This document shows, in pieces, positions 22,148 to 29,636 of a DNA stretch of 64,000 bases (the stretch's first letter is position 1; every line of letters starts with the position of its first letter). The position numbers were made by a program, and so were the translations under genes. Where the stretch lies: the NCBI GenBank assembly GCA_005116835.1, contig SWDM01000004.1, forward strand, positions 28,749 to 92,748, given 5' to 3'. The notes under the pieces were generated by a model. The model had not been told where the DNA came from, ran no database searches, and worked only from the letters and a program-made list of their open reading frames with translations. The stretch is from Nitrospira sp. GTDB taxonomy: Bacteria > Nitrospirota > Nitrospiria > Nitrospirales > Nitrospiraceae.

Positions 22148-22510
22148 ATGCGTATGAAGAACCCTCCCCATCCAGGATTATCAGTGCGGCATGATTGCCT
22201 CGAACCGCTTGGCCTATCCGTCGCGGAAGGAGCGAAGGTGCTGGGTGTCACGCGGCAGGCCATGAATAACCTGGTCAGCGGCAAGGCCGGGATTTCTGCC
22301 GAAATGGCGTTCCGTCTTGAAAAGGCATTTGGAGGCGGCGCCGAAACCTGGCTGCGGATGCAATCAGCCTATGACCTAGCACAGGTAGAGAAGCACGCTG
22401 GAAAGATCAAAGTCCGACGCGTCAAAGATGCGTTGATACAGGTGTATTCTGATCGGAGCGGGATCGCCCGGTTCCCTGTTAAGTTCAAGAATCAGCAGGA
22501 AACGGCATGA
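22148..22510 (+). CDS. higA: HigA-family addiction module antitoxin
   Basis: Predicted 120-aa antitoxin/transcription repressor with a Xre-type helix-turn-helix: NPPHPGLSVRHDCLEPLGLS, VAEGAKVLGVTRQAMNNLVS and GKAGISAEMAFRLEKAFGGG, matching HigA (PGE.L...LE..G.s....A..LGvsr..ls.ll.gr..is...A.RL...fg). Its toxin gene survives only as a C-terminal stub immediately upstream, so this is an orphan antitoxin. AAGGAG precedes the ATG. The next gene overlaps by ATGA. Confidence 0.85.
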   Translation: MRMKNPPHPGLSVRHDCLEPLGLSVAEGAKVLGVTRQAMNNLVSGKAGISAEMAFRLEKAFGGGAETWLRMQSAYDLAQVEKHAGKIKVRRVKDALIQVYSDRSGIARFPVKFKNQQETA

Positions 22511-22770
22511 AACGTAAAGAGCCACCACGGTCAGACAACATGCGGGCAGAGTATACCTTCGACTACACAAAAGCCGTTCGAGGAAAGTACTACCGGCGGC
22601 TCTTCAAGGAAGGTGCAAATGTAGCCGTGCTCGATCCCGATGTCGCCAACGCTTTTCGAGACTCCGCATCGGTCAATGCGGCTCTGCGCTCCCTTCTCGA
22701 AGTGTCCGAGGCGACTCGACGCCTGACAACCCGCTCAAAGCGAGGATCGAAGAAACGCGTGGCGGCATAG
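22507..22770 (+). CDS. Small protein of the MRAEYxFxxxxRGKYY type, TA-associated
   Basis: Predicted 87-aa basic protein overlapping higA by 4 bp. MRAEYTFDYTKAVRGKYYRR and NVAVLDPDVANAFRDSASVN match a widespread small protein family often found beside toxin-antitoxin genes (MRxEYDFsxgxRGKYxxRxxxGtNvVVLDPDVAxxFpDSxsVN). An antitoxin-like or DNA-binding role is inferred from context only. The first nine codons precede the conserved start; the ATG at NMRAEY (22540) is an alternative. Confidence 0.65.
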   Translation: MKRKEPPRSDNMRAEYTFDYTKAVRGKYYRRLFKEGANVAVLDPDVANAFRDSASVNAALRSLLEVSEATRRLTTRSKRGSKKRVAA

Positions 22771-22892: not shown

Positions 22893-23073
22893 CCTGATGA
22901 TCTTCTGTGCTCGCGCAACGCGCCCGGGCTCGTCTGTCTGGTTGGCCGGTCTTTCTGGTCTGTCTAGTTCTTCTGAATGAGTTTCCAGTCCGATCAACCA
23001 GACAAACCAGATAGACGAGATAGACCAGATTAACCAGCCTTCGTTGGACGCGCGCAGTGGAAGATCAATCAGG
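22893..23073. repeat. Long-stem hairpin repeat R3 with nested 9-bp-period palindrome
   Basis: Outer stems CCTGATGATCTTC and GAAGATCAATCAGG with core halves GCTCGCGCAACGCGC and CGTTGGACGCGCGCAG, as in R1. Between the halves, 22925-23040 is a 9-bp-period palindrome (TGTCTGGTT, GGTCTGTCT... ATCAACCAG, ACAAACCAG). So one repeat family sits inside the loop of another. Confidence 0.75.
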
Positions 23074-23283
23074 CCTCATCCCTGAAGAGATAACGAGCGA
23101 GCTTGGAAGGAGCATTATAGAAACGTGCTCGTTCGACGCACGCAACCAAGGTTCGACGAGACTGTCCTTGAAGAAATTGGTTAATTTTAGGATTGGCAAA
23201 ATGTACGGTTTAGTGCATATTTACGGATTGAAAGATGCTCTTAATGCGAAAGACCTTAAACGGGTCTACGAGGAAATCTATAA

Positions 23284-24342
23284 ATGCCAAAACTATTTAC
23301 GGCCAAACTTGAGGAGCTGTTCTTTGACCCGAAAAATCCGAGACTTATAGGGGATTTTGGTGATGACCAGAACAAGATGTTCAGGTATTTAATCACCGAT
23401 ATCGGAGTGGAAGACCTTATCGAATCTTTGTCAACTTCGGGACTATTTGAAGCAGATCCAATAATCGTCAAAGAGAGGACTGCTGGAGGCTACTATGTCA
23501 TTGAAGGCAATCGCCGCCTCGCTGCTCTAAAGTTGCTTACTGGCAACCTTCCGGAGGACGGTCAACCTAATCCCACCATGCCAACGGTGCCTTCGGAGCT
23601 TGCAGATTCCTTCAAGAAGATCAAAGTGCAGAGCGAGTGGCCGCAGGATAAACTTCAAGCCTATCTCGGGTATAAGCACGTAACTGCATCAAGAGAATGG
23701 TCGCCAGAAGCTAAGGCCAAGTTTGTTTTCGAACACGCTGGCGGTGACTTCTCAACCGATAATCTTCGCAAGTTTGCCAGAAGTCTTGGAACGAAATTCC
23801 CGACTCTGAAAAGGTGGCTTGTCGCCTATCTCACTTTGAGGCAGGCGGAGAGGAAAGAAGTTTTTGATTCAGACACGGCACCCGCAAAGGGATACTTCGG
23901 CACTTTCTACACTCTGCTCGGCGGACAGCAGGCGCAGAAATTCTTGAATCTTAAGGACGACCCAATAAACCAGAATCCTATTCCTGAAGATCACATAAAA
24001 GAACTTGGAGATTTCATTAAATGGACTATTGGCACAAGGGAAAATCCTGGGGTTGTTAACAGCCGCCAGCAAAAGCAATTTGAGCAGGTGTTATCAAGCT
24101 CTAAAGCTCTAAAGCACTTTCGTGTCAAGGGAGACTTAGCCGCATCACTTCTTTATACAGAATACAATGCGGAAGAGATTGCCTCTAAGTTCCGAGAGGC
24201 GGCATATAGCATTGAAGATTGCCTTACCAAGCTTTTCGACGTTCGAGAGAATGACACTGTTAAAGAATCGTTCTCGGAACTTGAGGGAGCCTATAAGAAG
24301 GCGAAGATCAATATGAAATCTGAAAATAAACTAGATGAGTAA
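23284..24342 (+). CDS. ParB/sulfiredoxin-fold N-terminal domain protein
   Basis: Predicted 352-aa protein. Residues about 8-85 form a ParB-like domain: LEELFFDPKNPRL, LIESLSTSGLFEADPIIV, then VIEGNRRLAALKLL, where the GNRR replaces the classic GxxR/DGxHR nucleotide-binding turn. The rest (about 100-352) is helical and unrecognised. GAGGAA lies 8 bp before the ATG. It overlaps the next gene by 8 bp and shares its AT-richer composition, so the pair was probably acquired together with the methyltransferase downstream. Possible role: DNA-sensing or nuclease part of a modification-based defence system (inference). Confidence 0.75.
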   Translation: MPKLFTAKLEELFFDPKNPRLIGDFGDDQNKMFRYLITDIGVEDLIESLSTSGLFEADPIIVKERTAGGYYVIEGNRRLAALKLLTGNLPEDGQPNPTMPTVPSELADSFKKIKVQSEWPQDKLQAYLGYKHVTASREWSPEAKAKFVFEHAGGDFSTDNLRKFARSLGTKFPTLKRWLVAYLTLRQAERKEVFDSDTAPAKGYFGTFYTLLGGQQAQKFLNLKDDPINQNPIPEDHIKELGDFIKWTIGTRENPGVVNSRQQKQFEQVLSSSKALKHFRVKGDLAASLLYTEYNAEEIASKFREAAYSIEDCLTKLFDVRENDTVKESFSELEGAYKKAKINMKSENKLDE

Positions 24343-25183
24343 TAACATTCCTGAAATCGCAGATATAGTTGAGCTACAAGCCTGGGCCACTGATCGCCCT
24401 TATAGCATTAGCGCTTTAAAGGAAGAGTTAGAGGCGGCGCTTCCTCAGGACGAACAGGCGAATGCGGAAAGATTAGCTCGTGAGGCATTTGAGGAGATGT
24501 CTGAAAGGGCGCGGCTTCTTGATAGTGCCTATCCATTTACACACGACGGAGTTACACTTGCTCCAAATTCACACGAGACAAGTTCATCATATTTATTTTG
24601 CCTAGGCCTTACTTGGTTCGAAGATATAACTTTACGCTTGAGGACGAGTGAGTTTGAATCTGTTGTGAAAGCAGCAGCCGAAAGCTATTTTCGAGGAAAG
24701 GCAATTCGTATCGGAGCTCCTTGGGCAAATGGAGAAATAACGAGCTATGAGGCTTTACTGAATATGGTCTCGGACCTGATTCCTGATCTTGGTCCCCCCG
24801 TTCAGAAAGAAGCTCCGGGAGGTGGGGATGCCGGGTGGGATGTTGTCGTTGTCAATAATTTTTCAGATAAGAAGTTTTCAAGAATTATAGCGCTCGGGAA
24901 CTGCGCCACAGGTCGAACCAACTGGCGAAGTAAAGGCCTTGAAACACAGCCCACACTATTTTGGAGTTTCTTTACAAGGCCCCCTCATTCCTACAATGTC
25001 TGCCTTACTTTCATCGCAGTACCATTCTTAATGACGGAGGATGATAAATTACGCAAAGCAGGGCAAACTTGCATTACCTTTGATCGGGTTCGAATATGCG
25101 AGCATGCACCCTCTGCAAGTTCTCATGCGATGCAGTGGCTTGGGTCAAAGAAACAGGCTGCCCTGGATCTTCCATTTCTGTAA
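24335..25183 (+). CDS. Unknown protein, possible nuclease-fold partner of ParB-like gene
   Basis: Predicted 282-aa protein overlapping the ParB-like gene by 8 bp. The first 80 residues are acidic and helical. Around residues 160-195, GGDAGWDVVVVNNF, then RIIALGNCATGRTNW, look like a beta-strand carrying an Asp followed by a second strand, as in the core of PD-(D/E)XK-type nucleases, but the usual Glu-x-Lys is not evident. So a restriction endonuclease role is only a hypothesis. No signal peptide. AT-richer than the chromosome around it. Confidence 0.6.
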   Translation: MSNNIPEIADIVELQAWATDRPYSISALKEELEAALPQDEQANAERLAREAFEEMSERARLLDSAYPFTHDGVTLAPNSHETSSSYLFCLGLTWFEDITLRLRTSEFESVVKAAAESYFRGKAIRIGAPWANGEITSYEALLNMVSDLIPDLGPPVQKEAPGGGDAGWDVVVVNNFSDKKFSRIIALGNCATGRTNWRSKGLETQPTLFWSFFTRPPHSYNVCLTFIAVPFLMTEDDKLRKAGQTCITFDRVRICEHAPSASSHAMQWLGSKKQAALDLPFL

Positions 25184-25275
25184 TAGCAAAAGTCCCCAAC
25201 TCCACTGTTCTCGCTCTAGCAATTCATGGTACCACTTTGTTGTACAGTGGCATATAGAATTGACTCGCGCTGAGA

Positions 25276-25416
25276 ATGAATCAGCAAAGCACTATGAAAG
25301 AAAGTCATTCGCCGCGTGTCTCCATCAGCTTTCCATCGAACCTTTACGTTGTTGAAGAATACAGCGCGGATCAGTGGCCGCTATCCAGAGATGAGTCAAC
25401 TCGGCCAACTCTATGA
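25276..25416 (+). CDS. Putative 46-codon ORF coupled to the methyltransferase
   Basis: Open frame of 46 codons starting MNQQSTMKESHSPRVSISF and ending ESTRPTL; its TGA overlaps the methyltransferase ATG as ATGA. No family recognised and no helix-turn-helix, so it is not an obvious controller protein. Could be a leader peptide giving translational coupling, or chance. The remaining 25184-25275 shows nothing. Confidence 0.35.
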   Translation: MNQQSTMKESHSPRVSISFPSNLYVVEEYSADQWPLSRDESTRPTL

Positions 25417-26639
25417 ACGGCATGTCATTAAAAAAACAACAGCGCCGTACTTCCAGTAAAATTCAGACATCTTTACTCACCCTTGACCTCTTCAGCGGAG
25501 CTGGAGGAATTACTGAGGGTTTCCGCCAGGCTGGTTACAAATGTCTCTATGGCAATGATTGCATGCCAGAGGCCATCGAGACATTTTCTCTCAACCACCC
25601 TAAAGCGTGGGCTGACCCCCGCGATATCGAAGAGGTTAAACCAGCACATATAAGGTCTCGCCTCGACCTCAAAAGAGGAACACTCGATATCCTCGTCGGC
25701 GGCCCGCCATGCCAAGGCTTTTCAATTAATGCACCGGAACGATTCCTTCACGACTCACGCAATAAGCTCTTCAAGGATTACGTGAGGTTCCTCGAAGAAT
25801 TCGAGCCAAAGACTTTCCTCTTCGAAAATGTTCCTGGCCTGCTTTCCCTCGCTAACGGTAAAGTTTACCGACAAATCGTCCTCGAATTTGAACGTCTAGG
25901 CTATCATGTAACGACAAGAATTCTATTTGCTGCCCATTATGGCGTACCTCAGGAACGATGGCGCCTCATCATTCTTGGCTCTAAATTCTCGAGCATTATG
26001 CCACCCCCACCCACCCACTATGCCACCGGTCGCACAAATTTTAGGGGAGGGAGGACACTTGCTTTTCACCTCCAGCCCGACGAAAAAAACCGACTTTTGC
26101 CAGCGATAACAGTTCAGCAAGCGATCGGCGACCTTCCCCGCTTAGAAATGGGATACGGTGCAGAGCTCGTTAGCTATACCGCTACTGCCCACAGCGATTA
26201 TGCGAGGCTCATGCGCAACCCTGTAGGGATAACCTTCAATCATTTAGCTGCCAAACTTTCACGACAAAACTCTGAACGAATGAAATATGTCAAGCCTGGC
26301 GGATCCTGGCGCGATATTCCTCACCGCCTTCTGCCTAAAGGTATGAAACGTGCTCGAAAGTCTGATCATACCAAGCGTTATGGTCGACTCCGATACGAAG
26401 GGCTGGCCGGCACCGTCATGGCCAAGTGTGATCCTCACTGGAGCGCCGTTTTCCTTCCTGACCAAGACCGCTCCCTCACTGTACGTGAAGCCGCAAGATT
26501 TCAGTCTTTCCCTGACTCATATAGATTCCTCGGCTCCCGTGTTTCTCAGTATGAGCAAGTAGGCAACGCAGTGCCCGTCTTGCTGGCTAAAGCCATTGCT
26601 CTTCAAATCCGAAAACACCTTGAAGCCCGTGGGTCGTGA
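25413..26639 (+). CDS. DNA (cytosine-5-)-methyltransferase
   Basis: Predicted 408-aa enzyme that methylates cytosine C5 in a specific DNA sequence using S-adenosylmethionine. Motifs in order: I LDLFSGAGG (about 24-32), IV GGPPCQGFS with catalytic C100, VI FLFENVPG (about 136-143), VIII VPQERWRLIILG, IX REAARFQSFPD and X QYEQVGNAVP. A target-recognition region of about 120 aa lies between VIII and IX. The enzyme appears intact. It lies 230 bp after two overlapping unknown genes, so it may be the modification part of a restriction-like defence module. Target sequence cannot be read here. Confidence 0.93.
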   Translation: MNGMSLKKQQRRTSSKIQTSLLTLDLFSGAGGITEGFRQAGYKCLYGNDCMPEAIETFSLNHPKAWADPRDIEEVKPAHIRSRLDLKRGTLDILVGGPPCQGFSINAPERFLHDSRNKLFKDYVRFLEEFEPKTFLFENVPGLLSLANGKVYRQIVLEFERLGYHVTTRILFAAHYGVPQERWRLIILGSKFSSIMPPPPTHYATGRTNFRGGRTLAFHLQPDEKNRLLPAITVQQAIGDLPRLEMGYGAELVSYTATAHSDYARLMRNPVGITFNHLAAKLSRQNSERMKYVKPGGSWRDIPHRLLPKGMKRARKSDHTKRYGRLRYEGLAGTVMAKCDPHWSAVFLPDQDRSLTVREAARFQSFPDSYRFLGSRVSQYEQVGNAVPVLLAKAIALQIRKHLEARGS

Positions 26640-26838: not shown

Positions 26839-26873
26839 TCCTGCTCCCTCCAAGCTCGCTCGTTATCTCTTCA

Positions 26874-26971
26874 GGGATGGGGGCTGATTGATCTTCCACT
26901 GCGCGCGTCCAACGAGGGTCTTCTGAGACCGCGCGTTGCGCGAGCACAGAAGATCAATCAGCCCCCATCCC
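26874..26971. repeat. Long-stem hairpin repeat R5 (perfect 23-bp stem)
   Basis: A perfect 23-bp inverted repeat (26874-26896 and 26949-26971, beginning GGGATGGGGGCTGATTGATC) encloses CACTGCGCGCGTCCAACGAG and CGCGCGTTGCGCGAGCACA. The best-preserved member. R4 and R5 together separate the methyltransferase module from the ORF6N remnant. Confidence 0.85.
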
Positions 26972-26996: not shown

Positions 26997-27245
26997 TCAC
27001 ATCCTTCTGCCACCCCACTTCGAACTTGATATCGCAATTTGCGATTTCAAGTTTTCAAACTCCGCTATTGTTAACTGGAATATGAAATCACTGGGAAAGC
27101 GATCCTCATTTCTTTTGACGACTTCGTTCAATCTTCCCACTGTGACACCGTAGAGCTGAGCCAAGTCGCTATCCAGCATCACGTTATGACCACGGATCAG
27201 GAGGATTGTCTGCTCAGTCCGTTCACGAGGTACCAGAGCACTCAT
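26997..27245 (-). pseudogene. ORF6N-domain gene, 3'-truncated (copy 1)
   Basis: Encodes 82 aa: EQTILLIRGHNVMLDSDLAQ, LYGVTVGRLNEVVKRN, RFPSDFIFQLT, LKSQIAISSSKWGGRR, then a stop. This is the ORF6N DNA-binding domain of phage anti-repressor-like proteins, but the family continues with [16 protein letters not shown] and a coiled-coil tail, which are missing here. The palindrome at 27025-27051 lies within the LKSQIAIS codons. It shares about 95 bp of upstream sequence with the copy at 29.2-29.6 kb. Confidence 0.75.
27025..27051. repeat. ORF6N-internal palindrome, copy 1
   Basis: CTTGATATCGCAATTTG then CGATTTCAAG: near-perfect 13-bp inverted repeat with a T centre, inside the coding region. Same consensus as 21428-21464 and 29482-29508. 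Confidence 0.7.
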
Positions 27246-27876: not shown

Positions 27877-28995
27877 ATGGCTGAACCGCTCAAGAATCAT
27901 TTCGGAGTTGAGATTCCCCGCATCATTGCCGAGATGATCGTGGCGGTCTATCCCGCCTTTCCCAAGGCCCAGTTTCTTCGCACCGCCCTACAAAATTATG
28001 AACCGCGGGAGCTCATGCCACGCGGGCGGCACATCGCACGGGCGTTGCGCCAACATCTTCCAGATAACTACGAAGAAGCCATTGAGATCCTCCTGGCTTC
28101 GCTCGGTCCCTCTGTCCCGAAGCAAGCGGGCCACGGAGGGATGGCGCCCTTCTTCTATATGCCGCATGCCATGTTCGTGCAGGACTATGGGCTCGACCAT
28201 TTCGAACCCTCGATGCGGGCGCAATACGAATTGACACAACGCTTTACCGCCGAGTTCAGCATTCGCCCCTTTCTGGAGCGTCATCGTGAGGCCACATTGG
28301 CAAGACTAACCCTGTGGGCGACCGATCCCAGTCCCGACGTCCGCCGGTTGGTCTCAGAGGGAACAAGGCCACGGTTGCCCTGGGCCCCGCGCTTGCGAGC
28401 CTTTCAGGCCGACCCACAACCTGTGCTGGCCCTGCTCGACTTGTTGAAAGACGACCCAGACCTCTACGTGCGCCGATCGGTGGCGAACAACCTGAACGAC
28501 ATCGGGAAGGACCATCCGGCCTTATTGGCCCAAATCGCCAAGAAGTGGATGCGGAACGCCACCGAAGAGCGGCGCTGGTTGATCCGTCATGCCTTACGTT
28601 CTGCCGTGAAACGGGGCGAGCCAGGCGCGTTGCATGTGCTGGGTGCCGGGCATGAAGCGCAAGTGGTTGTGCGACAGCGCTCCATCATGCCAAGCCGAGT
28701 GCGAGTGGGCCAGTCTGTAACCGTGGCATTCGAACTCAGGAACGCACAATCAAAACTGCAACGGGTAGTGGTCGATTTCCGAATCCATTTCGTGAAGGCC
28801 AACGGCTCGACGACACCGAAAGTTTTCAAGCTCAAGATGATCGAGCTCTCACCACGCGCGAGCATCTCACTCAAGAAGACGGTGTCCCTCAAGCCCATGA
28901 CCACCCGCAAGCACTATCCAGGGCAACACCGGGTAGACCTCCTCCTCAATGGCCGCGCCAAACCCCTCGGGATGTTCGAACTCCTAGGGCGGTGA
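27877..28995 (+). CDS. AlkC-like DNA alkylation repair protein
   Basis: Predicted 372-aa protein of the ALK/HEAT-like alkylpurine glycosylase superfamily. Residues about 1-245 form helical HEAT-like repeats: WATDPSPDVRRLVSEGTRPR then LPWAPRL, and LLDLLKDDPDLYVRRSVANN. Residues about 265-372 form a beta-rich Ig-like domain (RVGQSVTVAFELRN...HRVDLLLNG), the arrangement seen in AlkC, which removes 3-methyladenine and 3-methylcytosine from DNA. It stands alone between two hairpin-repeat blocks in the accessory island, consistent with being a mobile module. Confidence 0.85.
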   Translation: MAEPLKNHFGVEIPRIIAEMIVAVYPAFPKAQFLRTALQNYEPRELMPRGRHIARALRQHLPDNYEEAIEILLASLGPSVPKQAGHGGMAPFFYMPHAMFVQDYGLDHFEPSMRAQYELTQRFTAEFSIRPFLERHREATLARLTLWATDPSPDVRRLVSEGTRPRLPWAPRLRAFQADPQPVLALLDLLKDDPDLYVRRSVANNLNDIGKDHPALLAQIAKKWMRNATEERRWLIRHALRSAVKRGEPGALHVLGAGHEAQVVVRQRSIMPSRVRVGQSVTVAFELRNAQSKLQRVVVDFRIHFVKANGSTTPKVFKLKMIELSPRASISLKKTVSLKPMTTRKHYPGQHRVDLLLNGRAKPLGMFELLGR

Positions 28996-29198: not shown

Positions 29199-29636
29199 TC
29201 AAGTCTTGAATCCGATGCGGCGGGATTTTGGCGTGGGCTCCGCCATTAATTCACGAATGGCCTCGAACACGACTTGAAACTGGCCATCATACTTCTTCTC
29301 CAGATCTGAGAGACGTCTGGCAAGGGCTTTATTCGAGCTGATCATCTCCCGCAAGCGAACAAAGGTCCGCATAATGGCGATGTTCACCTCAATGGCGCGC
29401 TTGCTTCGCAACACGCTGGATAGCATTGCGACGCCCTGTTCGGTAAAGGCATAGGGATGGGCTCTACGGAGACCGCCCCAACTTGAAATCACAATTTGTG
29501 ATTTCAAGTGGTTGAACTCCTGCTCCGTCAGTTGAAACATGAAGTCAGCTGGAAATCGGCCTCTGTTGCGTTTCACAGCCTGGATAAGCACACGCGGCTC
29601 AACTGCATAGAGATCGGCAAGGTCTGTGCTCAGCAT
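29199..29636 (-). pseudogene. ORF6N-domain gene with lost start (copy 2)
   Basis: 145 codons from the first [68 protein letters not shown], then a coiled-coil tail. The C-terminal part is complete. Upstream in frame, [13 protein letters not shown] continues the family N-terminus, but the original start is gone: compared with copy 1, exactly 50 bp between two TGCTC repeats are deleted, removing the first codons and the ribosome binding site. Expression could only use the internal ATG. Confidence 0.75.
29482..29508. repeat. ORF6N-internal palindrome, copy 2
   Basis: CTTGAAATCACAA, central T, TTGTGATTTCAAG: a perfect 13-bp inverted repeat inside the LKSQIVIS codons of the ORF6N gene. Confidence 0.75.

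Follow-up and report, generated by a model that had tools for sequence, protein, structure and literature searches.

A cassette of three genes in Nitrospira sp. is likely a restriction-modification-type defence system. It lies in a stretch of 64,000 nucleotides (assembly GCA_005116835.1, contig SWDM01000004.1, positions 28,749 to 92,748 of the forward strand; hereafter the window, in whose coordinates positions are given unless a locus is named) and combines a ParB-fold protein, a putative nuclease subunit of an unnamed family and a C5 cytosine methyltransferase. This proposal draws on gene order, the near-obligate pairing of the first two genes, the folds of their products, an active-site pattern in the second, the presence of a single adjacent methyltransferase at most related loci, and a link between the lineage of the pair and the kind of mark that its methyltransferase leaves. 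The parts of the cassette are as follows.

23284-24342, + strand: gene for the ParB-fold protein, 352 aa (open reading frame)
23503-23517, + strand: EGNRR motif, residues 74-78 of the ParB-fold protein (alignment)
24335-25183, + strand: gene for the predicted PD-(D/E)xK-type nuclease subunit, 282 aa, unnamed family (model, fold matches and motif)
24827-24934, + strand: predicted nuclease active site, D165, D169, N189 and K200 (alignment)
25413-26639, + strand: gene for the C5 cytosine methyltransferase, 408 aa (PF00145, dcm family)

A preliminary description of this region, made from the letters and a list of open reading frames, had reported overlapping genes for a ParB-fold protein with a GNRR motif and for an unrecognised protein, lying about 230 bp ahead of an intact C5 methyltransferase and AT-richer than their neighbourhood. 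All of this holds. The first two genes overlap by 8 bp including the stop codon, the motif reads EGNRR, and the methyltransferase gene begins 229 bp after the partner gene and encodes a full domain (PF00145, E 1.3e-68, residues 23-400). The guanine-plus-cytosine (GC) content is 0.45-0.47 at 23000-25500 and 0.47-0.51 across the methylase, against about 0.53-0.60 in the surroundings. The reading frames of the cassette are all intact, and the pair of ParB-like gene and partner occurs a single time in the host genome.

The pairing of these two genes is near-obligate. The sequences in hand number 184, namely 183 loci retrieved by ParB similarity alone plus the window, some of them redundant, and 172 carry a full-length ParB-like gene. 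In 165 of the 172 the partner follows it immediately on the same strand, and a richer profile raises the number to 166 by adding locus L158. Five of the six loci without a partner end at a contig edge, leaving L066 as the true exception. The reverse search leads to the same arrangement: a partner profile matched 7 of 395 genomes of the host phylum, the genome of the window included, and a ParB-like gene stands directly upstream of the partner in 7/7. Within the fetched set, the pair family is found in 17 named phyla.

Profile searches and structure prediction of the 352- and 282-aa proteins, which the preliminary description had proposed as the way to identify them, gave a ParB fold for the first and a PD-(D/E)xK-type fold for the second. 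The ParB-fold protein consists of an N-terminal ParB/Srx nucleoside triphosphate (NTP)-binding fold at about residues 1-136, a helix-turn-helix region and a helical C-terminus. In Pfam it has a weak ParB_N match (E 0.0024) and a GmrSD_N (DUF262) match (E 0.067), both under the curated cut-off, while the unnamed phage family phrog_3694 matches the whole protein (E 3e-55). Its model is confident (predicted local distance difference test, pLDDT, 93.1) and matches structures of ParB, Noc and KorB (Foldseek E down to 5.8e-6), with Z 10.6 over 204 residues for KorB and Z 9.9 for ParB with CTP-gamma-S. The EGNRR motif, H132, W139 and K144 are invariant in 120/120 aligned homologues. True ParBs use cytidine triphosphate (CTP), and their canonical motifs differ in detail from the EGNRR-type motif seen here; the modelled fold suggests that this protein may use CTP as well.

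The partner is predicted from its model, fold comparison and motif to be a putative PD-(D/E)xK-type nuclease. None of the 120 members of its family, the window protein included, has a Pfam match at E <= 0.01, and the few members scanned against PADLOC and NCBIfam matched no model there; two PHROG families of unassigned function do match it (phrog_14650, E 7e-18; phrog_3984, E 4.8e-14). Searches of phages and plasmids with the window partner protein (tblastn), and viral scans with A4 and with a PD-lambda-5_A relative, gave no match. Its model (pLDDT 92.6) is placed by VIA-align mostly beside restriction and defence nucleases in the top rows, with N.BspD6I at Z 7.2, FokI at 7.0 and MspJI at 6.8, and further matches include Can2, Card1, HamA, McrBC and Shedu, with AspBHI also listed. 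The search of a viral structure library gave nothing at E < 0.001. As these Z values fall in the middling range of which VIA-align warns, the active-site motif matters. An Asp (D169) is invariant in 123/123 homologues and is followed by Gln in 116/123. The catalytic lysine stands at position 191, as in Q-x-K enzymes, in 25 homologues and at position 200 in 95, so that exactly one of K191 and K200 is present in 120/123 (both in 1, neither in 2). MspJI is the sole PDB sequence match of the partner profile, and its Asp and Gln align at the active site. The likeness to the MspJI-type nuclease domain thus extends to the fold and to the Asp...Gln-x-Lys layout; the differences are that the sequence match is not convincing (E 0.56), that the lysine has moved in most members, and that the 120 members carry no Pfam domain. 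A reading of the lysine switch as repeated covariation was rejected, as it is a single change on the tree; the Fisher value obtained for the switch consequently overstates the evidence.

The neighbourhood of the pair supplies the methyltransferase. Counts were made on a non-redundant set of 124 loci, the window included, after 161 loci had been reduced by 38 at a threshold of 80% partner identity; the window duplicates L001 and L170 and one partner of less than 240 aa were also left out beforehand, as were L076 from A5 and four ParB rows from A6. Methyltransferase classes were assigned by clustering, with one member per cluster scanned in Pfam. On this basis, exactly one methyltransferase immediately flanks the pair in 105 of the 124 loci, and it belongs to one of three unrelated classes (50 D12, 44 C5 and 11 N6_N4). 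Methyltransferases make up 105 of 241 flanking genes vs 11 of 831 genes at other positions from -7 to +8, and 111 loci have one somewhere in the fetched stretch. The preliminary description had proposed looking for conserved co-occurrence with a methyltransferase, with homologues lying away from such enzymes speaking against its module; this check did not refute the module. L071:7116-8531 encodes a fusion of a C5 methyltransferase with a Vsr mismatch endonuclease domain.

In a tree built from both proteins of the pair together (105 rows), all 44 C5 loci fall to one side of a single branch and the D12 and N6_N4 loci to the other. Methyltransferase class changes 9 times on this tree vs 41.8 times when shuffled, and on their side D12 and N6_N4 have been repeatedly exchanged, well-supported branches alone requiring 7 to 8 changes. 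Because one branch splits the C5 loci from the D12/N6_N4 loci, the pair appears to follow mark chemistry; it seems tied to a kind of mark, with enzymes that leave marks of like chemistry being exchanged. A patch that might carry specificity was sought as identity along both proteins in 137 locus pairs with similar methyltransferases vs 59 with different ones; no segment stood out in what is a weak test, since overall identity is not the same in the two sets. Both sets conserve the helix-turn-helix, with values of 0.78 and 0.70 at residues 171-180.

The methyltransferase of the window has a history of its own. The nearest relatives of the pair are in Acidobacteriota (L010-L012; ParB-like protein 51-56% and partner 46-55% identical to the window), and they too have exactly one adjacent C5 methyltransferase. 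The closest methyltransferase found, 74% identical, is instead on Paraburkholderia plasmid pBN5 beside a NotI-family endonuclease and a Vsr gene, and enzymes about 50% identical on Xanthomonas and Pseudomonas plasmids also adjoin NotI-family endonucleases (three neighbourhoods of window-type methyltransferases were examined). The window differs from these type II restriction-modification systems in that no NotI-family endonuclease is adjacent and the effector is the ParB-nuclease pair. Sequence comparison thus suggests that the window methyltransferase is probably an exchanged partner, drawn from a NotI-type system. The two kinds of system also meet on viral contig L128, which holds the pair, a window-type methyltransferase (44% identical) and a NotI-family endonuclease together. 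A NotI-family endonuclease adjoins the pair and a single methyltransferase in L046, L074 and L128 (two with D12, one with C5; L046 by clustering only), an arrangement that looks like two effectors relying on the same mark.

A mechanism can be proposed on these grounds. The methyltransferase would mark host DNA at its target; the ParB-fold protein would bind DNA and probably nucleotide, acting as reader or scaffold; and the PD-(D/E)xK protein would work with it, presumably in a complex, to cut DNA without the mark, which could protect the cell against phage. In the window, the methyltransferase, probably a replacement from a NotI-type system, would protect against the pair. As for the parts of a type II-like restriction-modification system, the adjacent methyltransferase is present and the endonuclease active site is predicted. 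A more specific version is tentative and rather doubtful: that the pair is a plug-in restriction effector, in which a nucleotide-gated ParB-type clamp would load onto DNA and deliver a dedicated PD-(D/E)xK nuclease, the mark of self coming from whichever methyltransferase is paired with it. On this view one methyltransferase might also serve a second effector of its locus (a NotI-family endonuclease or PD-lambda-5_A). The idea draws on the range of enzymes that accompany the pair family, namely C5, D12 and N6_N4, and, if it is true, specificity would not reside in a conventional sequence-specific endonuclease.

Several observations weigh against a restriction-modification system. In 13 of the 124 loci the fetched stretch lacks a methyltransferase of any of the three classes, and the branch separating the C5 loci is weakly supported (79). 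The fold matches of the nuclease are modest, with no Z >= 8 and no Foldseek E < 0.001, and the lysine switch counts as one event. In the window nuclease, which has the migrated lysine K200, the position held by Gln in most homologues is N189, and its three nearest relatives likewise have Asn. The window methyltransferase is only 24-36% identical to the C5 enzymes of L010-L012, its type serves NotI-family endonucleases elsewhere, and the gap before its gene exceeds that of every other same-strand C5 locus in the set. Comparison nevertheless gives good support to the earlier idea of a restriction-like three-gene module, through the pairing, the predicted nuclease active site and the methyltransferase adjacent in most homologues; its first two genes may attack unmethylated DNA, as that description proposed. 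The analogies that were named for it fare less well: SspE amounts to a distant fold match (6jiv, Z 4.7 over 116 residues of the ParB-fold protein), and PD-lambda-5 is the closest named system instead.

PD-lambda-5 leads to an alternative that is less probable yet deserves weight, namely that the methyltransferase labels the host DNA and the pair answers unmodified DNA, or the loss of methylation, with unspecific DNA damage instead of cutting at a specific site, and so stops the infected cell. Vassallo et al. (2022; PMC9519451) term PD-lambda-5 a compacted restriction-modification plus abortive infection (RM+Abi) system. PD-lambda-5 shares with the window a ParB-like N-terminal domain and an adjoining methyltransferase, and the D12 branch of the pair family uses a PD-Lambda-5_B-type methyltransferase (L006, E 6.5e-95). 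A PD-Lambda-5_A-type cluster also occurs near the pair in 6/124 loci (L024, L025, L036, L040, L059 and L070), two members of which, from L036 and the redundant L039, were scanned and are full-length. The differences are nonetheless substantial. PD-Lambda-5_A is a single protein of greater length (most profiles 428-613 aa), its models match the window ParB-fold protein only to profile position ~160, the N-terminal third, and no PD-Lambda-5_A profile matches the window partner. That PD-lambda-5_A is a fused form of the partner was rejected, as two such proteins tried against the nuclease profile gave a probability of 0.2%; the effector therefore differs. The window enzyme, moreover, is a PF00145 C5 methyltransferase and not D12, and there is no PD-Lambda-5_B among the best 25 of its 65 PADLOC rows. 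Since the window cassette does not fit what defines PD-lambda-5, it is not filed there, and is best read as a sibling system, related but not identical.

Another possibility, itself somewhat unlikely, is that the window cassette does not function as a unit, its NotI-type methyltransferase being a solitary remnant and the pair standing alone or inactive. The mismatch between this methyltransferase and those of the pair's relatives, its kinship with enzymes beside NotI-family endonucleases and the 229-bp gap would all fit such a remnant, as would a search for NotI in the host genome that gave no match, with control genomes giving none either. Against it, the reading frames are intact, the closest pairs of other hosts keep one adjacent C5 enzyme, and the same methyltransferase type adjoins the pair in L128. 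Chance adjacency is also unlikely because the genome has just two C5 methyltransferase genes. The second of these, at L195:4237-5427, likewise differs from the L010 type (26% identical), and is 29% identical to that of the window. The pairing of the window methyltransferase with the two genes is no more than probable, since the enzyme is of the NotI-system type.

A modification-dependent (type IV-like) role, in which the pair would cleave foreign DNA that carries methylation and the methyltransferase would be an incidental neighbour, is improbable. In its favour, the nearest solved relative by sequence is MspJI, and AspBHI is among the fold matches, both being modification-dependent enzymes. 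Such a role sits poorly with the immediate adjacency at 105 loci and with a pair lineage that follows methyltransferase chemistry, and a nuclease cutting its neighbour's own mark would be self-destructive. That the first gene encodes a ParB for plasmid or chromosome partition, next to a gene that has nothing to do with it, is scarcely credible, for despite the NTP-binding fold and helix-turn-helix shared with ParB/Spo0J, partition models match only weakly, no ParA was found among the five neighbouring proteins scanned with Pfam, and the nuclease partner is near-obligate.

Returning to a restriction-modification system, the window cassette is best read as the same as an unnamed cassette of phage Wphi and E. 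coli W. In Wphi (gp98-gp96-mth), and also in phages 12474III and D14A, the ParB-like gene, the partner and a C5 methyltransferase follow in the same order, with no annotation beyond gp98/gp96 or hypothetical protein and methylase, and this cassette is present in 139/5426 complete E. coli genomes, including that of E. coli W. Its pair is about 25% identical to that of the window, and its methyltransferase differs in being convergent rather than co-directional and of another C5 subtype. The genomic context of the pair also favours a defence role: a P2-type phage portal gene is near it in 13/124 loci, and Vassallo et al. (2022) present the P2 portal region as a hotspot rich in defence genes. Four odd E. 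coli alleles of the Wphi-type cassette were noted, too few for a test: three break the partner gene (interrupted or split in L219, L220 and L222, of E. coli JXZ9A32M, 98206 and E22), and in the fourth an insertion sequence (IS) element precedes the ParB-like gene. All four keep a methylase gene annotated as intact, as expected for restriction-modification.

Among candidate systems, model A of PDC-M38 (PADLOC, PDLC04607) matches residues 41-341 of the ParB-like protein with 61 bits; this profile is 715 long and is matched over half, no PADLOC model matches the partner, and PDC-M38 is not named in the open-access literature searched. No description of a ParB, partner and methylase cassette was found in that literature, an absence that proves little, and 'ParB' does not appear in a restriction-modification review (PMC12707154).

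This analysis would give a likely function to a protein family that had no Pfam match in 120 members and that spans the 17 named phyla, P2-like phages and E. coli W. It would also make a ParB-type NTP-binding fold central to a restriction-modification-like system, and raises the question of how the targets of a nuclease pair and of interchangeable methyltransferases stay matched. Because relatives occur in many phyla and in well-known E. coli phages, the cassette is directly testable.

The surroundings of the cassette include two copies of an interspersed repeat, both outside the module.

23038-23114, strand not assigned: left flanking copy of the interspersed repeat
26842-26918, strand not assigned: right flanking copy of the interspersed repeat, inverted

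These form a 77-nt inverted pair, 95% complementary, so that repeats do flank the cassette, as had been described. They belong, however, to a family of 78 nt (23038-23115) with at least 42 copies genome-wide, and therefore do not delimit it; their interpretation as the ends of a mobile element was rejected on the same count. Upstream, an HTH_3 antitoxin-like protein overlaps a small gene (22148-22510 and 22507-22770). Downstream are two ORF6N-domain genes on the minus strand (26997-27245 and 29199-29636), with repeated DNA in and around both, and a HEAT-repeat protein (27877-28995) that weakly resembles DNA alkylation repair enzymes. At other loci, a Z1-domain protein cluster is near the pair (L005, L023, L028, L038, L014 and L051; one member, from L038, was scanned), and in L023 and L005 a DUF4420 nuclease lies beside it.

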